A DNA stretch of 64,000 bases, taken from assembly GCA_022072055.1 (NCBI GenBank), contig JAJVIK010000002.1, positions 169,615-233,614 on the forward strand, in the 5' to 3' direction. Under the pieces are notes generated by a model. The model was given only the letters and a program-made list of their open reading frames with translations, had not been told where the DNA came from and searched no databases. How positions within the stretch are numbered: position 1 is the first letter of the stretch; each line of letters opens with the position of its first letter. Shown one piece after another: positions 3,842 through 55,425 of this stretch. Source of the stretch: a bacterium (GTDB lineage: Bacteria; Hinthialibacterota; Hinthialibacteria; OLB16). A program made the position numbers and the translations under genes.

Positions 3842-6800
3842 ACTCGACCGAGTCCGGACAAGGGTACTGGCGGAGCCTCCAGGAGCTCGCGCGCGACCCC
3901 GCTTTCTTGGCCGAGCTCGGTCCGGAATTCGCGGAGGCCGCCGATTCGCCGCCGGAGGGGACCTCCCGCAGGCGCTTCCTTCAGGTGATGGCGGCCTCGG
4001 TGGGTCTCGCGGGGCTGACCGGGTGCCGTTGGCCGAAGGAGAACATCTACCCCTACGCGAACCGTCCCGATGGAAGGATGCCGGGGGTTCCCGTCAAATA
4101 CGCCACCTGCTTGGACCTTGGCGGGTCGGCGCGAGGGCTCCTCGCCACCAGCTACGATGGCCGCCCGATCAAGGTCGACGGCAACGACCTGCATCCGATT
4201 AACCGTGGCGCGAACGACGTCCTGGCCGAGGCGAGTGTTCTCGACCTGTATGACCCCGATCGGACCCGCGGTCCGATTCGGGTTGAAAAGGGAGAGCCTT
4301 ACTACGATTCCTGGGATCATTTCAACACAACCGCGCATGGCATTTTCGCGGCCATGCGCTCCAAGAGCGGCGCGGGGGTGGCGATTCTGAGCGAGGCTTC
4401 CTCCTCGCCGACCTTCGCTCGACTGAAAGCCAAGCTGCTTGCCGCTTGCCCCCAGATCAAGTGGTTTGAGTACGAGCCTGTCTCCAACGACAACGAACGT
4501 GTCGGAACGGCCATGGTTCACAGCCGCGCGACCCGCCCTCATTACTCCCTCTCCGAGGCCAAGATTGTCGTGGGTTTGGATGGAGACCTGTTCGAAACCC
4601 ACCCGGCGGCGCTGCTCCATGCCCGCGACCTGATCACGGCGCGGAACCCGGACTCCGGGACCATGAATCGCCTGTACGCGATCGAGAGCGGCTTCACCCT
4701 GGCGGGCGCCCTCGCCGACCACCGTTTCCCGGTTCCGGCCTCCCAGGTTCTGGAAGTCGTCTGCCGCCTGATCGTCGAAGCGGTCAACCTGGGACTGCAA
4801 TCTCAATATCTGTCACCGGAGGTCATTTCGGGTGTTCGGAAGATGGCCGAGGCGAAGGTCTCGGTCGAGACGGTTCCGGACAAGGCGATCGCCGCCATCG
4901 CCAAGGACCTCATGGGCAGTAAGGGGGCCTCCGCGGTGACAGTCGGTTTCCGCCAGCCGCCCCTGGTGCACGCCCTGGTCCACACGCTCAACGCCGCGCT
5001 CGACAATGTGGGTCGGACAGTTCGTTACACCCCGGACCCCGATCCCGCCCGCCCCACTCACCTGGAATCGATCCGCGCCTTGAACGCCGCCCTCACCGAG
5101 GGGCAGGTGGAAACGTTGGTGATTCTCGGCGGCAACCCGGTTTACAACGCGCCCGCGGACCTAGATTTCGGCGAGGCGCTCAAGAAAGCCAAGACCAGTC
5201 TCCACCTGAACACTCACTTCGATGAGACTTCGCGCCTGTGCTCGTGGCATGTTCCGCGCGCGCATTACCTGGAGACGTGGGGGGATGGCCGGGCTTACGA
5301 TGGGACCTTGTGCGTGCAGCAGCCGCTCATCCATCCCCTGTACGAGGGCAAGAGCGCGCTGGAGTTCCTGTCGTTGATGACCGACGACATACCCCAGAGC
5401 GGTTACGACATGGTTCGTGAGACCGTGAAACCGCTTCTACCCGGGGCTGATTTCGAGGTGGCCTGGAGGAACTTGCTGAGCAACGGGATCCAGGAGGGGA
5501 CCCAGGAGGCAAACGCCCCATTCACCCACCGGAACGATCTCCTGGTCCAGGCCCTCAATGCATCCGTGCCGGCCCCGAAACTGGATTCCGGAAGCCTGGA
5601 GGTGGTGTTCCGCCCCCATTCCTCGATCTTGGATGGCCGGTTTGCCAACAATGGCTGGCTTCAGGAATTGCCTGATTTCATCACCAAGGTCTCGTGGGAT
5701 AACCCGGCTCTGTTCGCGGTTTCAACCGCCGCGGAACTCGACATCCGCGATGGAGACATGCTCCGTCTCAAGGTCGGGGACCAGTCGCTGGAGGTCCCCG
5801 CCTATGTCCTCCCCGGGCAGCCGAAGAACAGCATCGGCCTTTCCCTCGGTTTCGGACGCTCCGCCGCCGGGCGCGTGGGGAACGGCGTGGGTTTCGACAC
5901 TTACCGACTGCGCGCCTCCTCGAGGATGGACTTCACGACCGGCGTTCAGATCGAGAAGACCGGCAAGACCTGCATCCTTGCCGGGACTCAGGACCACTTC
6001 GCCATGGATGAGGTCGGCGCGAAGGAGCGCGAGGGCAGGACCCGCGCGCTTGTGCGCGAAGCCAACCTGGAGGAATACAAGCAGCATCCCGATTTCGCCA
6101 AGCACCGTGTCCACCTTCATCCCCTCGCGTCGCTCTGGCAGCCCCCCGCCGAGTATGGCGACAACAAGTGGGGGATGACCATGGACCTGCACAAGTGCAT
6201 CGGCTGCAATGCGTGTGTGGTCGCGTGCCAGTCGGAGAATAATATCCCGGTGGTGGGCAAGGAGCAGGTGCACCGCCAACGCGAGATGCACTGGATTCGG
6301 ATCGACCGCTACTTCAAGGGGTCCCCCGAGAATCCCCAGGTCGCTCACCAGCCCGTGGCCTGTGTCCATTGCGAGAACGCTCCCTGCGAGCAGGTTTGTC
6401 CGGTCGGGGCCACGGTGCATGACCATGATGGCCTCAATGTGATGGTTTACAACCGTTGCATCGGGACCCGTTATTGCTCGAACAACTGCCCCTATAAGGT
6501 TCGACGGTTCAATTTCTTCCACTACCACACACGGCACGAGACCGTGGAAAAAATGGTCTTCAACCCCGAGGTCACCGTGCGCTCGCGAGGCGTGATGGAG
6601 AAGTGCACCTTCTGCATCCAGCGGGTCGCCAAGGCCAAGATCGAAGCCAAGAACGAGCGCCGCCCGATCCGGGACGGCGAGGTTCAGACCGCCTGCCAGG
6701 TCGCCTGTCCGACCGGGGCGATTGTCTTCGGGGACCTCAACGACAAGGACAGTCGTGTGGTCCAACAGCAGAACGATCCGCGAGCCTACCTCCTGCTTGA

Positions 6801-6901
6801 GGAGTTGAATGTGCGCCCTCGCACCGCCCACCTGGCGAGGGTCCGCAACCCGCATCCCGATTTGGCTGAAGCCCATTCGGGAGAATCCGATGGTCACGCG
6901 C

Positions 6902-6924
<23 letters not shown>
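3829..6924 (+). CDS. actB: ACIII subunit ActB, Tat-exported molybdopterin-oxidoreductase-like/iron-sulfur fusion
   Basis: 1031 residues from ATG 3829; the frame is open further upstream but that stretch overlaps ActA and lacks family similarity. It begins with the MoCo-extension type leader ('[13 protein letters not shown]...'), followed by a Tat-like signal [21 protein letters not shown] near residues 45-65. Residues ~70-740 form the molybdopterin-oxidoreductase-like domain, which in ACIII carries no cofactor. The C-terminal part holds 15 cysteines in four groups starting at C790, C845, C877 and C926/C956. Group three is CX5CX3C with only three cysteines, so the count fits three [4Fe-4S] plus one [3Fe-4S], as in characterised ACIII. 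A His-rich tail ends the protein. Role: electron wire from quinol to ActA. Confidence 0.93.
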
Positions 6925-8350
<1,426 letters not shown>

Positions 8351-46464: not shown

Positions 46465-48960
46465 ATGAGCCTCGACACCTTCACTCGGAGAGGTCCGTTC
46501 CTCGGCGTGTTTTTGCTGGCCATGGCCACGCTCATGCACGAGGTCCTCCTGACCCGCATCTTCAGTGTCACCATGTGGTACCACTATGCCTTCGCGGCGA
46601 TCTCCGTGGCCATGTTCGGGATGACTGTCGGGGCCAATTGCGTTTACCTTTTTCCCAATCACTTTGCCCCCGAAAGATCGAAACGTCACCTGACCCACTA
46701 TTCCCTGTGGTTCTCCGTGATGATCGTGCTCAGTTTCGCTTTGTACTTGCGGATCCCGTTCGCCGACCCGGCCGAATTCTCGGCCTGGGTGTTTGGGCGG
46801 ATCGCCCTCACCTACGCGGTGGTTTCGATCCCCTTTGTGTTTTCCGGAATTGCGATCTGCCTTGCGCTCACCCGCTTCCCATCCCAGGTGAGTCGGATTT
46901 ACGCCTCCGACCTCGCCGGCGCGGCGCTCGGCTGTCCCGCGCTGGTGTACCTCCTGGAGGTATTGGATGGCCCGAGCGCGGTGGTGTTCATTGCGCTGGT
47001 CGCCGCCTCTTCAACCTTCTTCTTTGCGGGGGAGAGCGGTTCGGTGGGGGTCCGTCGCGCGGCTTATGTCGTGGCGCTCGGGTTCATCGGGTTGGTCGTG
47101 GCCAACGCGTGGCTCGCGCGCGAGGGTGAGGCGTTCCTCCGCCTCCGGTGGGTCAAGGGGGGCATGGAAGGCAAACCGCTGTACGAGAAGTGGAACTCTT
47201 TCTCGCGCATTCATGTCCAGGGGAACCCCGATGAGCCGGTCCCCCCCGAAAGTTGGGGGAGCGCCCTCGGGATTGGGACTCGCCCCCCGATCCGTCGCCT
47301 GTCCCTGTGGCTGGACTCCACCGCGCAGACCCATCTGATCGGACATGAGAGCGATGAGCGCAGGCTCGAGTTTCTCAAGGAGGATGTCACCGCTTTCGCC
47401 TACCATGTGCGCACGATCACCGATGTGCTGGTTGTGGGAACCGGCGGGGGCCGGGATGTACTGACAGCGCTTCAGTTCGACGCCGCGCGAATTACCGGCG
47501 TGGAGATCAATCGCAATGTCCTGCACGCCGTGAATGTTCGCTTCGGGGATTTCACCGGCCACCTGGACCGGAACCCGCGCGTCCAGTTCATCAACGACGA
47601 AGCCCGGAGCTACATCACTCGTCAGAAGGGGCGCTTTGGCTTGATCCAGATTCCCATGATCGACACCTGGGCGGCCACCGCCGCGGGGGCCTTCGTCCTT
47701 TCCGAAAACGCTCTATACACGGTCGAAGCTTGCACCGCCTTCTTGGAGAAGCTCAAACCGAACGGCATGCTCTCAATCACGCGCTGGCATGTTCAAAGCA
47801 GCCCTTGGGAGATTTCCCGCACGATCACCCTGGTCCTGGAGGCGCTCAAGCGGGTCGGCGCGAAGGATCCAAGGGATCACTTGCTGGTGATCAGCGCGTT
47901 TCCGCCGCTCAGCGATGTCGGGGTGGCCACGGTGCTTGCGAGTCGTTCACCCTTCGCCCTGTCGGAGCTGTACCGCGCCGAGGGCGTCGCCGCGCGGATG
48001 CGTTTCCGCGTGGACATCTCGCCACGTTCGGCCTCGACCCCGCTATTCGAGAGCCTCGCCTCCGGGCGGCCTCTGGCGGAGTTTTCCGAGGACCTACCGG
48101 TGACCCTTGCGCCGCCCACGGATGACTCCCCCTTCTTTTTCAACATGTTGAAGTTCTCCCATGTTCTCGACCGGGAGGCCTGGGGCGCGGGGCCGGTCGC
48201 GTTCAATCAAAAGGCGGTGTTCGCCCTCGGCGCGCTGCTTCTCACCGCCACAATCCTCACCCTCGCGTTCATCCTCCTCCCGCTGTGGTTGCGCGCGGAA
48301 AGGCCCGCATTCCGCACCGGACTGCCCCTGTTCCTCCTGTTCGCCGCGATCGGAATCGGCTTCATGCTTGTGGAGATCTCGCAGCTTCAGCGCCTCACTG
48401 TGTTCCTGGGACATCCCACCTACAGCCTGACCGTAGTCCTGTTCGCGATCCTGCTTTCGAGCGGTCTCGGGAGTTTTTTGACTCGGGGAATTGTCAATCC
48501 CGCCTTTGTCGGCGTGGTCCTCTTCTTGCTGCTGCTCGGATCGCTTACCGTTTATGGCTGCTACACCCCGCGTCTGGTGGAGGAGATGCGCGGCGAATCG
48601 ACCGGGATAAGGATTCTCGTGGCCGCGGCGATTTTGTCCGGGATCGGGATCTTTCTCGGAATGCCCTTTCCACTCGGAATGAAAGCGGCCTTGGTCCGGT
48701 CCCCGAAGCTGGCGCCGTGGCTGTGGGGAATCAATGGAGCGACCTCCGTCCTGGCCTCGATCCTGGCGGTGGTGATCGCCCTGCTATGGGGGATCTCGGT
48801 TTCGTTCTGGGCGGGGCTGGGGTGCTATGTTGTGGCCACCCTCGCGTTCATTTGGTCCTGCCTTCAGGAGGGCTACTCCACCGTGCCAAAACCCAACTAC
48901 CCCTTCACTAGCGAAGGGGAGTCGGTTATGGAAGTCACGGCGGATCATCCCGAGGACTGA
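46465..48960 (+). CDS. Membrane spermidine-synthase-like protein (paralogue 1)
   Basis: 831 residues from ATG 46465; TTG 46456 is possible. Six or more N-terminal helices (~10-225), a SpeE-like Rossmann methyltransferase-fold domain (~270-560) and further helices to ~810. The Rossmann loop 'VLVVGTGGGRDVLTAL' and 'VEINRNVLHAV' are clear. The aminopropyltransferase aspartate motif (D-x-x-DP) is replaced by 'LIQIPMIDTWAATAAGAF', so classical spermidine synthase chemistry is doubtful. It matches a group of multi-pass SpeE-like proteins of unknown role. The next gene is a close paralogue in the same order of domains. Confidence 0.8.
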   Translation: MSLDTFTRRGPFLGVFLLAMATLMHEVLLTRIFSVTMWYHYAFAAISVAMFGMTVGANCVYLFPNHFAPERSKRHLTHYSLWFSVMIVLSFALYLRIPFADPAEFSAWVFGRIALTYAVVSIPFVFSGIAICLALTRFPSQVSRIYASDLAGAALGCPALVYLLEVLDGPSAVVFIALVAASSTFFFAGESGSVGVRRAAYVVALGFIGLVVANAWLAREGEAFLRLRWVKGGMEGKPLYEKWNSFSRIHVQGNPDEPVPPESWGSALGIGTRPPIRRLSLWLDSTAQTHLIGHESDERRLEFLKEDVTAFAYHVRTITDVLVVGTGGGRDVLTALQFDAARITGVEINRNVLHAVNVRFGDFTGHLDRNPRVQFINDEARSYITRQKGRFGLIQIPMIDTWAATAAGAFVLSENALYTVEACTAFLEKLKPNGMLSITRWHVQSSPWEISRTITLVLEALKRVGAKDPRDHLLVISAFPPLSDVGVATVLASRSPFALSELYRAEGVAARMRFRVDISPRSASTPLFESLASGRPLAEFSEDLPVTLAPPTDDSPFFFNMLKFSHVLDREAWGAGPVAFNQKAVFALGALLLTATILTLAFILLPLWLRAERPAFRTGLPLFLLFAAIGIGFMLVEISQLQRLTVFLGHPTYSLTVVLFAILLSSGLGSFLTRGIVNPAFVGVVLFLLLLGSLTVYGCYTPRLVEEMRGESTGIRILVAAAILSGIGIFLGMPFPLGMKAALVRSPKLAPWLWGINGATSVLASILAVVIALLWGISVSFWAGLGCYVVATLAFIWSCLQEGYSTVPKPNYPFTSEGESVMEVTADHPED

Positions 48961-49011
48961 GCGCGCGGCCTCGGCGCGCTTTCCACGAGAAGGGCTTGAA
49001 CGGAAACCCGG

Positions 49012-51429
49012 ATGGGCGTGACTTGGAAAACGCGGGACTGGAGCCTCTATGTCGGAGTGTTCCTGGTTTCCATGGCGATCCTCATGTACGAAATCTTGCT
49101 CACGCGGATCTTCAGCGTGACCATGTGGTACCACCATGCCTTCGCCGCGATCTCGATCGCGCTCTTTGGGCTTTCGGCGGGGGCCAACCTGGTATATCTG
49201 CTTCCCTCCCATTTCACGCCGGGGAATACGCGGCGTCATCTGGCGTTCTACTCGCTCGTTTTCGCGGTCACGATGGTCATTTCGTTCGCGATCTACTTGA
49301 CCATCCCTTACAAAGATGTGCCCGGGGCCACATTCCGTGAGGCTCGCGCGCTGATTTCAACTTATGTCGTTTCGGCCATCCCGCTGGTCGTTGGCGGCGT
49401 GGTGATATGCCTCGCTCTGACGCGTTATCCGGAGAGGCTCGGGCGCGTGTATGCCGCCGACCTGATCGGCGCGGCCTGCGGGTGCGTGGCGGTCTGGGGA
49501 ATCCTGGAGGCGACCGATGGCCCCTCGGCGGTGGTGTTCGTGGCCGCTCTCGGCGCCCTTGGGGGGTTCGCGCTTCTTTGGGGGGAGCCGATCCCGGGCA
49601 TGCGAATCTCGGCTGGGGTTCTCGCGCTGGCGCTGGCGGCTTTTGCCTGCTGGAACACGGCGTTGGCGCGCGAGGGCGAGGCCCTCCTGCGCATTCGCTG
49701 GGTCAAGGGAAAGCGCGAGCTGCCGCCCCTCTATGAGAAGTGGAACTCATTCTCTCGGATACAGGTTGGGACCAAGGATGTTCCCCAAGGGGACATGATC
49801 CTCGCCCGCATCGATCCCAAACGCCCGGTCCGCCAACTCCCCCTCCAGATCGATGCGGGAGCCTTGACCGCCATGGTCAATTTCGAGGGCGACTACTCCC
49901 GGCTCGACTTTCTCGAAACGGATGTTGTCAACCTTGCCTACCATGTTCGCCCGCCGACCGATGTCTTGGTGGTCGGAGCGGGAGGGGGGCGCGACATCCT
50001 CTCGGCCCTCCATTTCGGGGCCGAGTCGGTGCTGGGGGTCGAGCTGAACGGAGATATCCTCAAGACGGTCCATGGACGCTTTGGGGATTACACCTCCCAC
50101 CTGGACCGCGATCCGAGAGTCCGCTTTGTCAATGACGAGGCCCGCAGCTTCATCACCCGTCAGAGGGACCGGTTCAGTCTGATCCAGATTTCGCTGATCG
50201 ACACCTGGGCCGCCACCGCCGCCGGGGCCTTTGTGCTCTCGGAAAACAGCCTGTACACCCTCGAGGCCTGGAGGGAGTTCCTTTCCAAGCTCAAGCCGAA
50301 CGGCATCCTGTCTTGCTCCCGGTGGCATGTGCCCCGCGCGCCCTGGGAGATGTACCGCACGGTCTCCCTGGCTGCCGGCGCGTTGAGGGAGATTGGAATC
50401 GAGAACCCGCGCGCTCACCTGATCCTCGCCAGTGTCCAGGCGCCGGCGGTCAAGTACGGTGTCTGCTGCCTGCTCACCAGCCGCTCCCCCTACACCGCGC
50501 AAGAAGTGGCCAAGGTGGAGGAGATCGACCGCGACCCAGGTTTCGAGGTCATCCTCACGCCCGAGCGCGCCACGGACCGCATGGTGGAGCAGCTCGCGGA
50601 TGGGATCTCGCATGCTGTCCTCACCGCCGATCTTCCCGTGGACCTTTCCCCCCCAACCGATGACTCCCCTTTCTTTTTCAATATGCTCAAGCTGAGCCAC
50701 ATGTTCCACGCCGCGGACTGGTGGAGGGGGCCGGTGGCCTTCAACATGAAGGCGGTCAACACCCTGGGAACTCTTCTGCTCACCGCGCTGGCTCTTTCGC
50801 TGGCCTTTATCCTGGTCCCGATCCGGGTGAAGCGCGGTTCCGGGGCGGATTCCGCCGGGTGGGCGCTCTCGACCTTCTTCGCTTCCATCGGCTTGGCCTT
50901 CATGCTGGTGGAGATCTCCCAGATGCAGCGACTGGTGGTGTTTCTCGGCCACCCGGTCTACGGGCTCTCCGTGGTCCTCTTCTCGCTCCTTCTTTCGAGC
51001 GGAGTCGGGAGCTACTTGACCGAATCGTTCCGCCTCTCTCGCGCGGGAGAGGTGAAGCTGTTCATCGCGCTGCTCGCTGCGCTGTTGCTCTTCGGTCTTG
51101 CCACCCCGGCCCTCATCTCGCATTTCCGCTCCGCGACCAACCCCGTGAGGATTCTCGTGGCGGTTGGGCTGCTGTCCGGAATCGGGGTGTTCATGGGGAT
51201 GCCCTTGCCCCTCGGCATGAAATGGGCGCAACGCCGGAACCCCGATCTCACCCCGTGGCTGTGGGGGGTGAACGGCGCCACCTCGGTGTGCGCCTCGATC
51301 CTGGCGGTGGCGATTGCCATGACATGGGGGATTTCCACCGCGTTCTGGACCGGATGCGGGTTCTATGCCCTGGCTTTCCTCTGTTTCGCCCGTGCGGGTG
51401 TCGGCGAAAGCCCTCGCCAAACGGCCTGA
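49012..51429 (+). CDS. Membrane spermidine-synthase-like protein (paralogue 2)
   Basis: 805 residues with the same architecture as the preceding gene: N-terminal helices beginning 'MAILMYEILLTRIFSVTMWYHH' (split after Y), SpeE-like domain with 'VLVVGAGGGRDILSAL' and 'IDTWAATAAGAFVLSEN', and C-terminal helices with 'FMLVEISQMQRLVVFLGHP' and 'LWGVNGATSVCASILAV'. Most motifs are shared with paralogue 1, including the missing aspartate motif, but sequence has drifted over the whole length. The gap between the genes is 51 bp, so one transcript is likely. A pore- or transporter-like role coupled to a nucleotide/SAM-binding domain is only a guess. Confidence 0.8.
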   Translation: MGVTWKTRDWSLYVGVFLVSMAILMYEILLTRIFSVTMWYHHAFAAISIALFGLSAGANLVYLLPSHFTPGNTRRHLAFYSLVFAVTMVISFAIYLTIPYKDVPGATFREARALISTYVVSAIPLVVGGVVICLALTRYPERLGRVYAADLIGAACGCVAVWGILEATDGPSAVVFVAALGALGGFALLWGEPIPGMRISAGVLALALAAFACWNTALAREGEALLRIRWVKGKRELPPLYEKWNSFSRIQVGTKDVPQGDMILARIDPKRPVRQLPLQIDAGALTAMVNFEGDYSRLDFLETDVVNLAYHVRPPTDVLVVGAGGGRDILSALHFGAESVLGVELNGDILKTVHGRFGDYTSHLDRDPRVRFVNDEARSFITRQRDRFSLIQISLIDTWAATAAGAFVLSENSLYTLEAWREFLSKLKPNGILSCSRWHVPRAPWEMYRTVSLAAGALREIGIENPRAHLILASVQAPAVKYGVCCLLTSRSPYTAQEVAKVEEIDRDPGFEVILTPERATDRMVEQLADGISHAVLTADLPVDLSPPTDDSPFFFNMLKLSHMFHAADWWRGPVAFNMKAVNTLGTLLLTALALSLAFILVPIRVKRGSGADSAGWALSTFFASIGLAFMLVEISQMQRLVVFLGHPVYGLSVVLFSLLLSSGVGSYLTESFRLSRAGEVKLFIALLAALLLFGLATPALISHFRSATNPVRILVAVGLLSGIGVFMGMPLPLGMKWAQRRNPDLTPWLWGVNGATSVCASILAVAIAMTWGISTAFWTGCGFYALAFLCFARAGVGESPRQTA

Positions 51430-51540: not shown

Positions 51541-53700
51541 ATGATTGCTGTGCCCAAGGAACACGTGCGCCCCTACCGAAATGAACCGGGCTATTTGACA
51601 GCCCCCCCGATTCCGGTCTTTCAATTCCATCGTCCCCTGCGGGAGGTCCTTGCCGAAGGCCAAATGACCAAGGCGGAGGCCAAGAAGCTCCTTGAGGTGA
51701 TGATTCGCATCCGGATCTTCGACACCACCATCGGCGAACTCAAGAACGAGGTCTACAAGGATCCCTCGGTCAAATACCGCGGAGCCACCCACTTGTGCGT
51801 GGGGCAGGAGGCGGCGGAGGCCCCGATCGCGGTGGTGCTTCGGCCCGACGACTACATCACCTCGAACCACCGTGGCCACGGCCACTCGATCTCCAAGGGA
51901 ACCGACACCAAGGCGATGATGGCCGAGATGTTCGGGCGCGAGGCGGGCTGCTGCAAGGGCAAGGGCGGTTCGATGCACGTGGCCGAATTCGAGCGCAACC
52001 ACCTGGGGGCCAACGCGGTTGTGGGCGGGGGACTGTCCATCGCCGGGGGAGCGGGACTGGGGGTCAAGTACGCCAAGTCCGGGCAGGTGGTCATCTGTTT
52101 CATCGGGGATGGCGCGGTCCATGAAGGGGTCTTCAACGAGACCCTGAATTTCGCCTCCGCGCTCAAGGTCCCAGTGATCTTCGTGGTCGAGGACAATGGC
52201 GCGGCCATGACCGGGCGCCTGGAGGACACCTCCAACATCGAGAACTGCGCGGTGCGCGCCTGGGGCTACAACATCCCCGGCGAGGTGGTTGACGGCACCG
52301 ACGCCCTGGCATGCTGGGACGCCTATCGGCGCTGGACCGATTACGCCCGCGCGGGAAACGGTCCGGTCCTTTTGGTGATGATGGTCATGCGCTACAAGGG
52401 GCACTCCCTTTCCGACTCCTGCAAGACCTACCGCAGCGACGCCGAGGAGAGCCTCTGGATGGAGCAGGACTGCGTCCGCAAATACGAGGCTCAAATCCTC
52501 GACGCCGGGGTGATGACCCGCGAGGAGATCGAGGCCCTTCGCGCCGACATTCAGAAAGAGATCGATGAGGCCGTGCAGTTCGCCTGGAAAGCTCCCGAGC
52601 CTCCCCTCGAAACCATGCTGGATGATGTCTACTCGAAGTCCTTCGATCCCGAATACTTCAAGCTCAAGAGCTACCGCCATTACTCGGAGGCGACCACCGA
52701 GCGAAAGCTGTCCATCAAGGACGCCATCAACGAGACCCTCGCGCAAGCCTTCGAGAACGATCCCCGAGTCATCTCCTACGGCGAGGATGTGGGTCCCTAT
52801 GGCGGCGCTTTCGGGGTGACCGCCGGACTGACCGAGAAGCATGGGGTCGAGAAGAATTTTGACGCGCCCTTGTCCGAGGGGGCGATTGTCGGGTTCGGCT
52901 TGGGGGCCTCCATGACCCAGAAGCTCATCCCGGTCGTGGAGATCATGTACAACGACTTTCTCGCCCAGGCCGAGGATCAAATTCAGAATCAGGCCGCCAA
53001 GGCGCGCTACATGTACGGCGGCAAGGCCAAACGCACCTTTGTGGTCCGGACCACCATCGGGGGCGGGAAGGGATACTCGTGCCAGCACGGGCAGGAACTG
53101 GTCTCCAAGTACTCCAACATGCCGGGTCTGTATGTGTGCGTTCCGGCGACCCCCTTCGACGCCAAGGGGTTGTTGAACACCGCGATCTACAGCGAGGACC
53201 CGGTGATCTTCTTCGAGCACCAACTGCTCTATGGCGGGGCGGTGTTTGGGGCCAATGTGCCCGAGGAGCGTTACACGATCCCCTTCGGCCTGGCCAGCAT
53301 TGTGCGCGAGGGGGAGGATGTGACCGTGTGGGCCTATTCGCGCATGCTCCACGTGGCCTTCAACGCCGCGCGACGACTCGAGCGTGAGGGGATCAGCGTG
53401 GAGCTGATCGATCCGCGCACCACGGTCCCGCTGGATGTGGACACGATTGTCGAATCGGTGAAGAAGACCCGCCGCCTGGTGTGCGTGTCGCAGGGCACGG
53501 ACACCGGGAACGTTGTGCACACGGTCTACAGCCGGGTGCAGCGCCAGCTCGACTTCCGCCTGCCGTTCGTGCCGGTGACCGCGCCGGATGGGGTGATGCC
53601 GATGGCGGCGAACCTGGAGGACGCCTTTGTGCCCAACGCGAACCGTGTGGCGGACGGCATCCGCGGGGTCATGGAGATGAGCGCCACGGTCGCGGCGTGA
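51541..53700 (+). CDS. Fused E1 alpha-beta thiamine-diphosphate dehydrogenase (pyruvate/branched-chain/acetoin type)
   Basis: 719 residues, alpha and beta subunits in one chain. Alpha (~1-370): 'HRGHGHSISKG', 'GGSMHV' and the ThDP motif 'GDGAVHEG...VVEDNG' starting at G189. Beta (~385-719): 'ISYGEDVGPYGGAFG', 'NFDAPLSEGAIVGFGLGASM', 'EIMYNDFL' and 'SQGTDTGNVVHTVYSRVQ'. E1 decarboxylates a 2-oxo acid and transfers the acyl group to lipoyl-E2. E2 and E3 are not in the flanking genes. GGAGG precedes the ATG by a few bases. Substrate not settled: 'GGAFGVTAGL' and the overall wording are closest to acetoin/pyruvate-type enzymes. Confidence 0.88.
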   Translation: MIAVPKEHVRPYRNEPGYLTAPPIPVFQFHRPLREVLAEGQMTKAEAKKLLEVMIRIRIFDTTIGELKNEVYKDPSVKYRGATHLCVGQEAAEAPIAVVLRPDDYITSNHRGHGHSISKGTDTKAMMAEMFGREAGCCKGKGGSMHVAEFERNHLGANAVVGGGLSIAGGAGLGVKYAKSGQVVICFIGDGAVHEGVFNETLNFASALKVPVIFVVEDNGAAMTGRLEDTSNIENCAVRAWGYNIPGEVVDGTDALACWDAYRRWTDYARAGNGPVLLVMMVMRYKGHSLSDSCKTYRSDAEESLWMEQDCVRKYEAQILDAGVMTREEIEALRADIQKEIDEAVQFAWKAPEPPLETMLDDVYSKSFDPEYFKLKSYRHYSEATTERKLSIKDAINETLAQAFENDPRVISYGEDVGPYGGAFGVTAGLTEKHGVEKNFDAPLSEGAIVGFGLGASMTQKLIPVVEIMYNDFLAQAEDQIQNQAAKARYMYGGKAKRTFVVRTTIGGGKGYSCQHGQELVSKYSNMPGLYVCVPATPFDAKGLLNTAIYSEDPVIFFEHQLLYGGAVFGANVPEERYTIPFGLASIVREGEDVTVWAYSRMLHVAFNAARRLEREGISVELIDPRTTVPLDVDTIVESVKKTRRLVCVSQGTDTGNVVHTVYSRVQRQLDFRLPFVPVTAPDGVMPMAANLEDAFVPNANRVADGIRGVMEMSATVAA

Positions 53701-53773: not shown

Positions 53774-54463
53774 TCAGAACCTCGGCAAACGGTGAACGTA
53801 GCGCTCGTTGTCCACAATCACTGGTTGAATCGGGGCGTTTCGCGCGTTCGGAGCCTTAACCGTGCTCGTGCCCACCCCGATCCACCAGCCGTCCCCACCC
53901 CAATAGTAAATCGATCCGTTGCTGTTGGTGCCGTTCGTCGGGGAGTAATTCCACGTTATATTGTCGCGGTGCGCCTCAGCCGCATGAATGTCCTGAACGT
54001 TATCTGGGCCATTGCTGAAGATGACGTAGGTGTGCATGCAAGGCATGCACTTCTCCCCGATCAGACCCCCGTTCTCAATGCCACCCGTCTCGTAGGTCAC
54101 ATATCCTCTGGCGACCACCTCGTCCGCACCGAAGGCCGAGAACGGGTCAGTGGGGATCGAACTGATGTATTTGATCGGAGAGGACAACCAGAACAGGCCG
54201 GTCTGGAAGCGATTGGTCTCGTTTCTTTCGTGCTCGGGTGGGTAAATTTTCCAATCCTGGTAATAGGCCTCCTGCGCGATGCCGAGGCTGCGCAGTTCCC
54301 CCTTGGCCTTGGTCACCCGCGCCCGAATCTGCGCCTCGAGGAAATTGGGGAGTGCGATGGCGATGAGGATCAGGATGATGGCGATGACGATCAAGAGCTC
54401 GATCAAGGTAAAGCCGCGCCGAAAACGGTTGAGATGAAGCGCCTGCACGATTGGATCTGTCAT
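53774..54463 (-). CDS. Type II/IV pseudopilin-like protein with a long extracellular domain (paralogue A)
   Basis: 229 residues. The prepilin signal 'RRGFTLIELL' (cleavage G17/F18, E22 as mature E5) leads to one hydrophobic helix and 'NFLEAQIRARVTKAKGELRS'. The globular part has 'AYYQDWKIYPPEHERNE', 'LFWLSSPIKYISS', 'PTDPFSAFGADE' and a strongly marked end: 'SIYYWGGDGWWIGVG' then 'PIQPVIVDNERYVHRLPRF'. GGGAGG precedes ATG 54463 by five bases. Such proteins are exported through type II secretion or type IV pilus machinery, none of which is here. Same strand and 87 bp from paralogue B. Confidence 0.85.
   Translation of the reverse strand: MTDPIVQALHLNRFRRGFTLIELLIVIAIILILIAIALPNFLEAQIRARVTKAKGELRSLGIAQEAYYQDWKIYPPEHERNETNRFQTGLFWLSSPIKYISSIPTDPFSAFGADEVVARGYVTYETGGIENGGLIGEKCMPCMHTYVIFSNGPDNVQDIHAAEAHRDNITWNYSPTNGTNSNGSIYYWGGDGWWIGVGTSTVKAPNARNAPIQPVIVDNERYVHRLPRF
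54294..54385. repeat. Exact 92-bp repeat, copy A
   Basis: Identical to 55074-55165 (offset 780 bp). It covers the pseudopilin helix and the following charged region; identity stays high to about 54415 with a few substitutions and drops sharply on the other side. Confidence 0.95.
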
Positions 54464-54550: not shown

Positions 54551-55231
54551 TCAGAACCTTGGCAGGCGTCGCTGAGTGATGACCCCATCCACGATGTTGG
54601 GCTGGAGGGGAACATTGGGATTGCCAACAGCGGCCGTTCGGGTTTCAGCGGGAACTCCGATCCACCAGCCATCCCCACCCCAATAAATCACCGACCCGAC
54701 GCTGTTGGTCCCATTGGTCGGCGAATAATTGTTATAAACCTGGGCGAAATGAGGATTGGCTCCCGAGATATCCTGGATATGGTCCGGGCCGTTGCTGAAA
54801 ATCATATACGTCAGCATACATGCAGGGCACTTGGTCCCGATGCCTGGGCCAACCTCAATTCCCCCGCTTTCATACGTGACATAACCTCTTGCAATTTGTT
54901 CGTCCGCCCCAAACGACGCGAACGGGTCCGTGGGCATCGAGGTCATATACTTGATAGGAGAGGTCAGCCAAAACAATCCGCGCTGATTGCGGATAAAGGA
55001 ATCCCGCTCGTGCTCCGCGGGGTAGACCTTCCAATCCAAAAAGTAGGCCTCCATCGCCGTGCCCATGCTCCGGAGTTCCCCCTTGGCCTTGGTCACCCGC
55101 GCCCGAATCTGCGCCTCGAGGAAATTGGGGAGTGCGATGGCGATGAGGATCAGGATGATGGCGATCACGATCAACAGCTCGATCAGGGTGAAGCCCTTCC
55201 TGCCACGCTTGAAACAAATGGATGAAAACAT
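54551..55231 (-). CDS. Type II/IV pseudopilin-like protein with a long extracellular domain (paralogue B)
   Basis: 226 residues from ATG 55231, with AAGGAGG eight bases upstream; the frame is open a little further. The prepilin motif 'GRKGFTLIELLIV' and the 'NFLEAQIRARVTKAKGELRS' segment are the same as in paralogue A. The globular part differs ('AYFLDWKVYPAEHERDSF', 'LFWLTSPIKYMTS', 'PTDPFASFGADEQIARG') but keeps the order and the final 'YWGGDGWWIGVP' block and C-terminal 'RLPRF'. Two cysteines in 'CPACM' match 'CMPCM' of A and may form a disulfide. Own terminator at 54493-54526. Confidence 0.85.
   Translation of the reverse strand: MFSSICFKRGRKGFTLIELLIVIAIILILIAIALPNFLEAQIRARVTKAKGELRSMGTAMEAYFLDWKVYPAEHERDSFIRNQRGLFWLTSPIKYMTSMPTDPFASFGADEQIARGYVTYESGGIEVGPGIGTKCPACMLTYMIFSNGPDHIQDISGANPHFAQVYNNYSPTNGTNSVGSVIYWGGDGWWIGVPAETRTAAVGNPNVPLQPNIVDGVITQRRLPRF
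55074..55165. repeat. Exact 92-bp repeat, copy B
   Basis: Identical to 54294-54385, within the coding sequence of pseudopilin B. Flanking coding sequence is clearly more diverged. Confidence 0.95.
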
Positions 55232-55425
55232 TTCACGAACCTCCTTGAATTCCACCGGTCGGACATCCCTCGAAGGCGCGAGCGATGTCTCCTACAAATA
55301 TAGATGATGAAACGCTTTACCCGCCTCCAGGCGGGCTCCCAGGTCTATGAGCGGGGACCTTTTTCCGACACTGAACTGAATACACCCAGGATTAATGTAA
55401 TTCTAGAGGATTGCGCGCGGTTTTT

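Follow-up and report, generated by a model that had tools for sequence, protein, structure and literature searches.

SAM is made in the cytoplasm, which is where enzymes that depend on it are expected. In spermidine synthases (SpdS, SpeE), an acid of the D104 type (human numbering) binds the aminopropyl amine of decarboxy-SAM (dcSAM) and presumably repels the SAM carboxylate, and D173 acts as the base that deprotonates the amine. A mobile gate loop has been described in a paper on the human enzyme. In plant SpdS, replacement of the D104 equivalent alone by Ile abolished or weakened aminopropyl transfer and conferred low methyl transfer from SAM (PMC3725402). The literature already contains a membrane SpeE-like protein whose catalytic aspartates are replaced in a conserved manner, namely SpeE2, encoded in the Pseudomonas ISS locus (PMC7298707). 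In addition, NHMT (AN4663) of Aspergillus is a SpeE-like N-terminal histidine methyltransferase with 7 TM helices, which resides in the fungal ER and methylates secreted proteins; its authors regard SAM availability in the ER as a possible limit and report the TM sequence only in filamentous fungi (PMC10349129). Our search of the literature for a periplasmic methyltransferase, or for a fused MFS alongside spermidine synthase, found nothing.

The window analysed here, a stretch of 64,000 nucleotides from a member of the Hinthialibacterota, carries two intact genes, P0001 and P0002, on the same strand and separated by 51 bp (Table 1). The initial annotation had described them as adjacent paralogues, each with helices at both termini and a SpeE-like Rossmann domain in between, and our analysis agrees on both points. 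The open reading frames were recovered at the positions given there; their products are 54% identical over their length, and they are the only copies in the 5.86 Mb genome. An AlphaFold2 (AF2) model of P0002, built from a 51-member alignment (mean pLDDT 89.8, pTM 0.92), shows seven TM helices (residues 10-37, 45-63, 70-95, 108-138, 140-167, 170-188 and 195-220), a SpeE-like domain, and seven further helices (575-606, 615-645, 648-672, 677-704, 710-742, 744-772 and 774-796). The best 50 Foldseek matches of P0002 in the PDB are all aminopropyltransferases (1uir, E 1e-8), and an ungapped profile alignment to 1uir (Thermus SpeE) gave E 3.5e-10. Routine annotation says little: P0001 has no Pfam match, the only one of P0002 is a sub-threshold match to Spermine_synth, and the NCBIfam matches of the pair, to polyamine aminopropyltransferases, are all sub-threshold. 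The C-terminal TM half of P0002 finds a match in the N-terminal TM block of the membrane-bound aminopropyltransferase model (PRK03612 / NF002956); however, the order of the domains differs and P0002 scores 48 bits against a curated cut-off of 472. A promoter scan was uninformative.

Table 1. Features of the P0001-P0002 gene pair (positions in the window)
Feature	Position	Strand	Basis
P0001, first membrane SpeE-like paralogue, 831 aa	46465..48960	+	intact ORF
P0001 N-terminal 7-TM half	46489..47121	+	alignment to P0002 model
P0001 SpeE-like soluble domain, predicted extracytoplasmic	47182..48153	+	alignment
P0001 glycine-rich SAM loop GTGGGRD, without D/E at the aminopropyltransferase position	47437..47457	+	alignment
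P0001 IDTWAATAAGAF, includes D400 (equivalent of human SpdS D176)	47659..47694	+	alignment
P0001 C-terminal 7-TM half	48196..48861	+	alignment
P0002, second membrane SpeE-like paralogue, 805 aa	49012..51429	+	intact ORF
P0002 N-terminal 7-TM half, residues 10-220	49039..49671	+	AF2 model, positive-inside
P0002 SpeE-like soluble domain, residues 241-560, predicted extracytoplasmic	49732..50691	+	model, Foldseek, profile, charge, Cys
P0002 glycine-rich SAM loop GAGGGRD	49975..49995	+	alignment
P0002 IDTWAATAAGAF, includes D397 and low-confidence gate-like segment 401-404	50197..50232	+	alignment, AF2 model
P0002 C-terminal 7-TM half, residues 575-796, MFS-like in Foldseek	50734..51399	+	AF2 model

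Both published membrane proteins resemble this pair in part. SpeE2 has a similar length (~850 aa) and likewise joins TM segments to a SpeE-like domain in a host with a separate SpeE1; however, its domain is C-terminal and has T/E/P at the positions of D104/D173/D176, whereas here these are G/S/D. In NHMT, a SpeE-like domain without the acid of GxG(D/E)G is also fused to 7 TM helices, but a single N-terminal TM block precedes a C-terminal domain, whereas here two TM blocks flank the domain. The position of the domain between the TM halves, the G/S/D substitutions and the topology evidence given below set the present family apart from both.

Residue frequencies were counted in the 51-member alignment, in which identity falls to 25%. 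Compared with canonical SpeE (PF01564; 1uir, 1inl, 2o06), the family keeps the fold, the adenosyl ligands of the E124 and D155 types, the second Asp of DxxD and the position of the gate loop. The counterpart of the ribose-binding E124 is E344 (48/51), and those of the adenine Asp are D375 (46/51) and E376 (47/51). In contrast, both the D104 acid and the D173 base are replaced. The position of the dcSAM-selecting acid is occupied by Gly (residue 325; 48 of 51 members) or Ala (the other 3), and the glycine-rich loop reads GxGGGRD. The Rossmann loop that had been called intact is present as a glycine-rich loop, without the D/E of GxG(D/E)G. In the profile alignment, DLTDP of Thermus SpeE pairs with SLIDT. 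The D173 position holds S394 in P0002 and P397 in P0001, Ser in 43 of 51 members, and Ser, Thr or Pro family-wide. The D176 position is D397, invariant in all 51 members; its equivalent is lost in two distant plasmid relatives (L098 and L103). The statement that the catalytic aspartates are lacking thus holds for D173 and extends to the D104 acid, but the retained D176 had been overlooked, as had the apparent outward position of the domain. The reported conservation of the replaced motif was reproduced: the 12-mer IDTWAATAAGAF is exactly common to P0001 (residues 399-410) and P0002 (396-407), and because DTWAATxAGA[FY] is kept across the family, this identity is not due to chance. Besides D397, the residues E411, Y415, T416, R378 and D550 are invariant in the 51 members. 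In the AF2 model, residues 401-404, right after D397, have pLDDT < 50 and lie where spermidine synthase has its mobile gate loop.

The replacement of the D104-type acid, together with the plant SpdS mutants and the example of NHMT, suggests that the domain should prefer SAM and that aminopropyl transfer is unlikely. Features of class I SAM methyltransferases are present (the Rossmann fold, the GxGGGRD loop and an acid, E344, at the end of strand 2), and 10 members have weak matches to Methyltransf_25. The domain is therefore probably a SAM-type transferase, with SAM as the donor and the methyl group as the moiety transferred; the retention of D176, as in aminopropyltransferases, speaks against a methyltransferase.

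The membrane part has a likeness of its own. The C-terminal half modelled alone (pLDDT 92.8) retrieves MFS carriers as its leading Foldseek matches, with E 4e-3 at best and TMq 0.48-0.60 among the best. MFS carriers have both ends inside, and by charge count the same is predicted for P0002. The six-helix bundle of this half resembles that of MFS transporters such as FLVCR1/2, G6PT and SLC15A4, which differ in lacking the additional TM7/TM8 that bear the enzyme domain here. P0002 has no MFS sequence signature, and motif A (GxxxDRxGRR) is absent from its loop 2-3, which reads LLPSHFTPGNTR. An internal repeat of the TM halves was non-significant with hhalign at default settings (E 0.19-0.28) and in an ungapped-profile test. 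Without composition correction, the best hhalign alignment pairs TM1-6 with TM9-14 (182 columns, prob 87%), and the conserved buried membrane residues E27, R32, D150, E634, Q639 and N754 pair across the halves (E27/E634, R32/Q639 and D150/N754). Taken together, the alignment and the paired residues are only suggestive of a repeat.

An MFS-like TM half would also suit a transporter with a sensor, in which a catalytically dead SpeE-like domain has a SAM-like compound or a nucleotide as its ligand and gates the membrane part. The base position, which holds no conserved functional residue (Ser, Thr or Pro), would be consistent with this, and a regulatory nucleotide-binding function was one of two proposals of the initial annotation. 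We consider it unlikely, as the invariant pocket and gate residues listed above look like an active site even among members as little as 25% identical, the gate-like loop directly follows D397 as in SpdS, and outward sensing of a cytosolic metabolite makes little sense. The other proposal, a new chemistry inside a transporter-like membrane protein, fares better: it fits the loss of the base and the dcSAM acid with the adenosyl ligands kept, the MFS-like TM half, and a separate canonical spermidine synthase in the same genome.

The SpeE-like domain very probably faces the outside of the cytoplasm, as judged from charge, Cys depletion, partner genes and the MFS-like half; this is a strong inference and the main point beyond the initial annotation. 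In 50 of 51 members, which are related homologues and hence not 51 independent observations, the short loops on the side of the N-terminus contain more Lys and Arg than those on the side of the SpeE-like domain. The counts are 11 vs 5 in P0002 and 11 vs 4 in P0001, and nine of nine plasmid relatives are biased the same way. By the positive-inside rule, this excess places the domain outside. Cys makes up 0.40% of the SpeE-like domain (none in 20 of 51 members) compared with 1.95% in nine cytosolic SpeE proteins of the same phylum. Within the family proteins themselves, the domain has 0.36% and the TM halves have 1.4-1.8%. Six MFS-like helices plus one extra helix ahead of the domain would lead to the same outward placement. 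The compartment in which NHMT meets its secreted substrates is topologically external, and the placement predicted here by charge and Cys bias would correspond to it.

Across the family loci there is no universal operon partner, and neighbours cluster only within lineages. In the window, the neighbours (a bacterial PH-domain protein, an MptE-like protein and a fused pyruvate dehydrogenase E1) include no informative partner. The last of these, at 51541-53700, joins the alpha and beta parts of E1 in one 719-aa ORF; beyond it, two similar pseudopilin-like proteins that share an N-terminal methylation-type segment are encoded side by side on the minus strand (53774-54463 and 54551-55255). In an alpha/betaproteobacterial plasmid clade, a PCMT (isoaspartyl methyltransferase; Pfam E ~1e-60) adjoins the family gene in nine of nine cases. 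It lies directly upstream in plasmids of Microvirga, Phyllobacterium, Sinorhizobium and Paraburkholderia, sometimes with a 4-bp overlap. Plasmid PCMTs of at least 59% identity number exactly nine, each adjoining a membrane SpeE-like gene, and the next PCMT is at 48%. An N-terminal signal-peptide-like segment was seen by eye in all six PCMTs inspected. Plasmid loci of this signal-peptide subfamily are L095:7228-10451, L097:7274-10466, L099, L100, L101 and L102. A signal-bearing PCMT that travels with the membrane SpeE-like gene would imply the use of SAM in the periplasm. In a clade of Sumerlaeota and rumen bacteria and in one deltaproteobacterium, the downstream gene encodes a GT-C-like membrane protein (PMT_2 for L040), and in Ignavibacteria and rumen bacteria the upstream gene often encodes a secreted protein or lipoprotein. 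Since PCMT, GT-C and secreted partners act outside the cytoplasm, they support an outward domain. Lipoproteins rich in Asp, Ser and Thr are encoded directly upstream at L055, L056, L064, L066, L068 and L082 (rumen and related bacteria); they are possible substrates.

These observations bear on a membrane methyltransferase facing the cytoplasm, in which the number or orientation of TM helices would have been misjudged and lipids or membrane proteins would be modified with cytosolic SAM. The cytosolic location of SAM and positively charged residues where the soluble domain borders the membrane would favour it. Nevertheless, we find it distinctly unlikely in view of the positive-inside bias, the Cys depletion, the seven helices ahead of the domain in a model of pLDDT ~90, and the exported PCMT in the same operon. 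The predicted location also matters for the identity as an aminopropyltransferase, which was rejected on the loss of two key residues and the presence of a canonical speDE pair elsewhere in the genome. An unusual enzyme of this kind, acting with dcSAM on a polyamine or polyamine-like substrate and with D397 replacing the lost base, is improbable. The spermidine synthase fold, the D176 equivalent in 51 of 51 members and a genome that makes dcSAM (speD) agree with it; against it, the dcSAM-selecting acid and the base are both replaced, the domain is set among 14 TM helices at a predicted extracytoplasmic site, the family genes lie outside a speD operon, and the canonical SpeE (GGGDG, DSSDP) adjoins SpeD elsewhere, on contig C16. 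This pair lies at G000:C16:18629-20438 (L088); the single ORF of its SpeD homologue contains two matches to AdoMet_dc. Re-use of the Rossmann domain for another nucleotide or as a scaffold in SAM-unrelated export or processing, to which the varying neighbours might point, is most improbable, as the adenosyl-ligand residues are conserved and the partner PCMT is itself SAM-dependent.

Topology and SAM-type transfer taken jointly, the family could well consist of extracytoplasmic SAM-dependent methyltransferases on an MFS-like scaffold, a reading we hold at about even confidence. The Foldseek E of the TM half (at least 4e-3), the non-significance of the internal TM repeat at default hhalign settings, the missing universal neighbour and the uninformative window neighbours count against it. 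Each chain would have two seven-helix TM halves with both ends cytoplasmic, and the spermidine-synthase-fold domain, inserted after TM7 and before TM8, would sit on the outer (periplasmic) face, binding SAM rather than dcSAM through the kept adenosyl ligands. The methyl group would most likely pass to an extracytoplasmic acceptor, speculatively an exported protein, a lipoprotein or a lipid-linked sugar. The MFS-like part would probably bring SAM or the acceptor to the outward pocket, the nature of the cargo being speculative; the buried acids E27, D150 and E634, together with the pseudo-symmetric pairs R32/Q639 and D150/N754, would, again speculatively, suit the passage of a cation such as SAM. 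To our knowledge, SAM is not known to occur beyond the cytoplasm of bacteria; a SAM enzyme that faces outwards would therefore depend on a supply that is unproven. A tentative and rather doubtful extension is a self-supplying machine, in which SAM (and SAH) would cross the membrane by way of the MFS-like carrier and the outward SpeE-derived domain would use the SAM. Equally tentatively, the family protein of rhizobia and Paraburkholderia would then also feed the periplasmic isoaspartyl methyltransferase. If true, an extracytoplasmic methyltransferase would mean that SAM is delivered across bacterial membranes and that SAM chemistry is possible beyond them. It would also reveal an unrecognised modification layer on exported proteins or envelope glycans, provide a bacterial parallel to NHMT of the fungal ER, and explain many proteins annotated as spermidine synthase or methyltransferase.

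A scan of genome contigs yielded at least 80 family loci. The phyla among the matches listed include Hinthialibacterota, Acidobacteriota, Cyanobacteriota/Melainabacteria, Ignavibacteriota, Zixibacteria, Latescibacterota, Sumerlaeota, Omnitrophota, Fibrobacterota, Myxococcota, Gemmatimonadota, Verrucomicrobiota, Armatimonadota, Chloroflexota and others, and plasmid records extend the family to Pseudomonadota and Bacillota. Most annotated plasmid relatives are named 'SAM-dependent methyltransferase' or 'spermine synthase' in RefSeq. Within the Hinthialibacterota, the gene occurs in 4 of 14 genomes. On the phylogenetic tree, the protein of Candidatus Hinthialibacteria OLB16 falls in one group with both window copies (support 100), and the OLB16 protein is closer to P0001 than P0002 is (support 95, quick method); the duplication therefore probably preceded that split. 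As part of the whole reading, and with the same even confidence, P0001 and P0002 would be lineage-specific duplicates within an uncharacterised, widely spread family of bacterial membrane enzymes. Another tandem of membrane SpeE-like genes was observed at L029, where a different SpeE-like membrane protein (5938-7983, 681 aa, above the PF01564 cut-off) is encoded with a 4-bp overlap with the family gene. In addition, genomes of the same class within the phylum contain open frames of 765-916 aa (L112-L115) with a SpeE domain above the PF01564 cut-off, which possibly represent another membrane subfamily.
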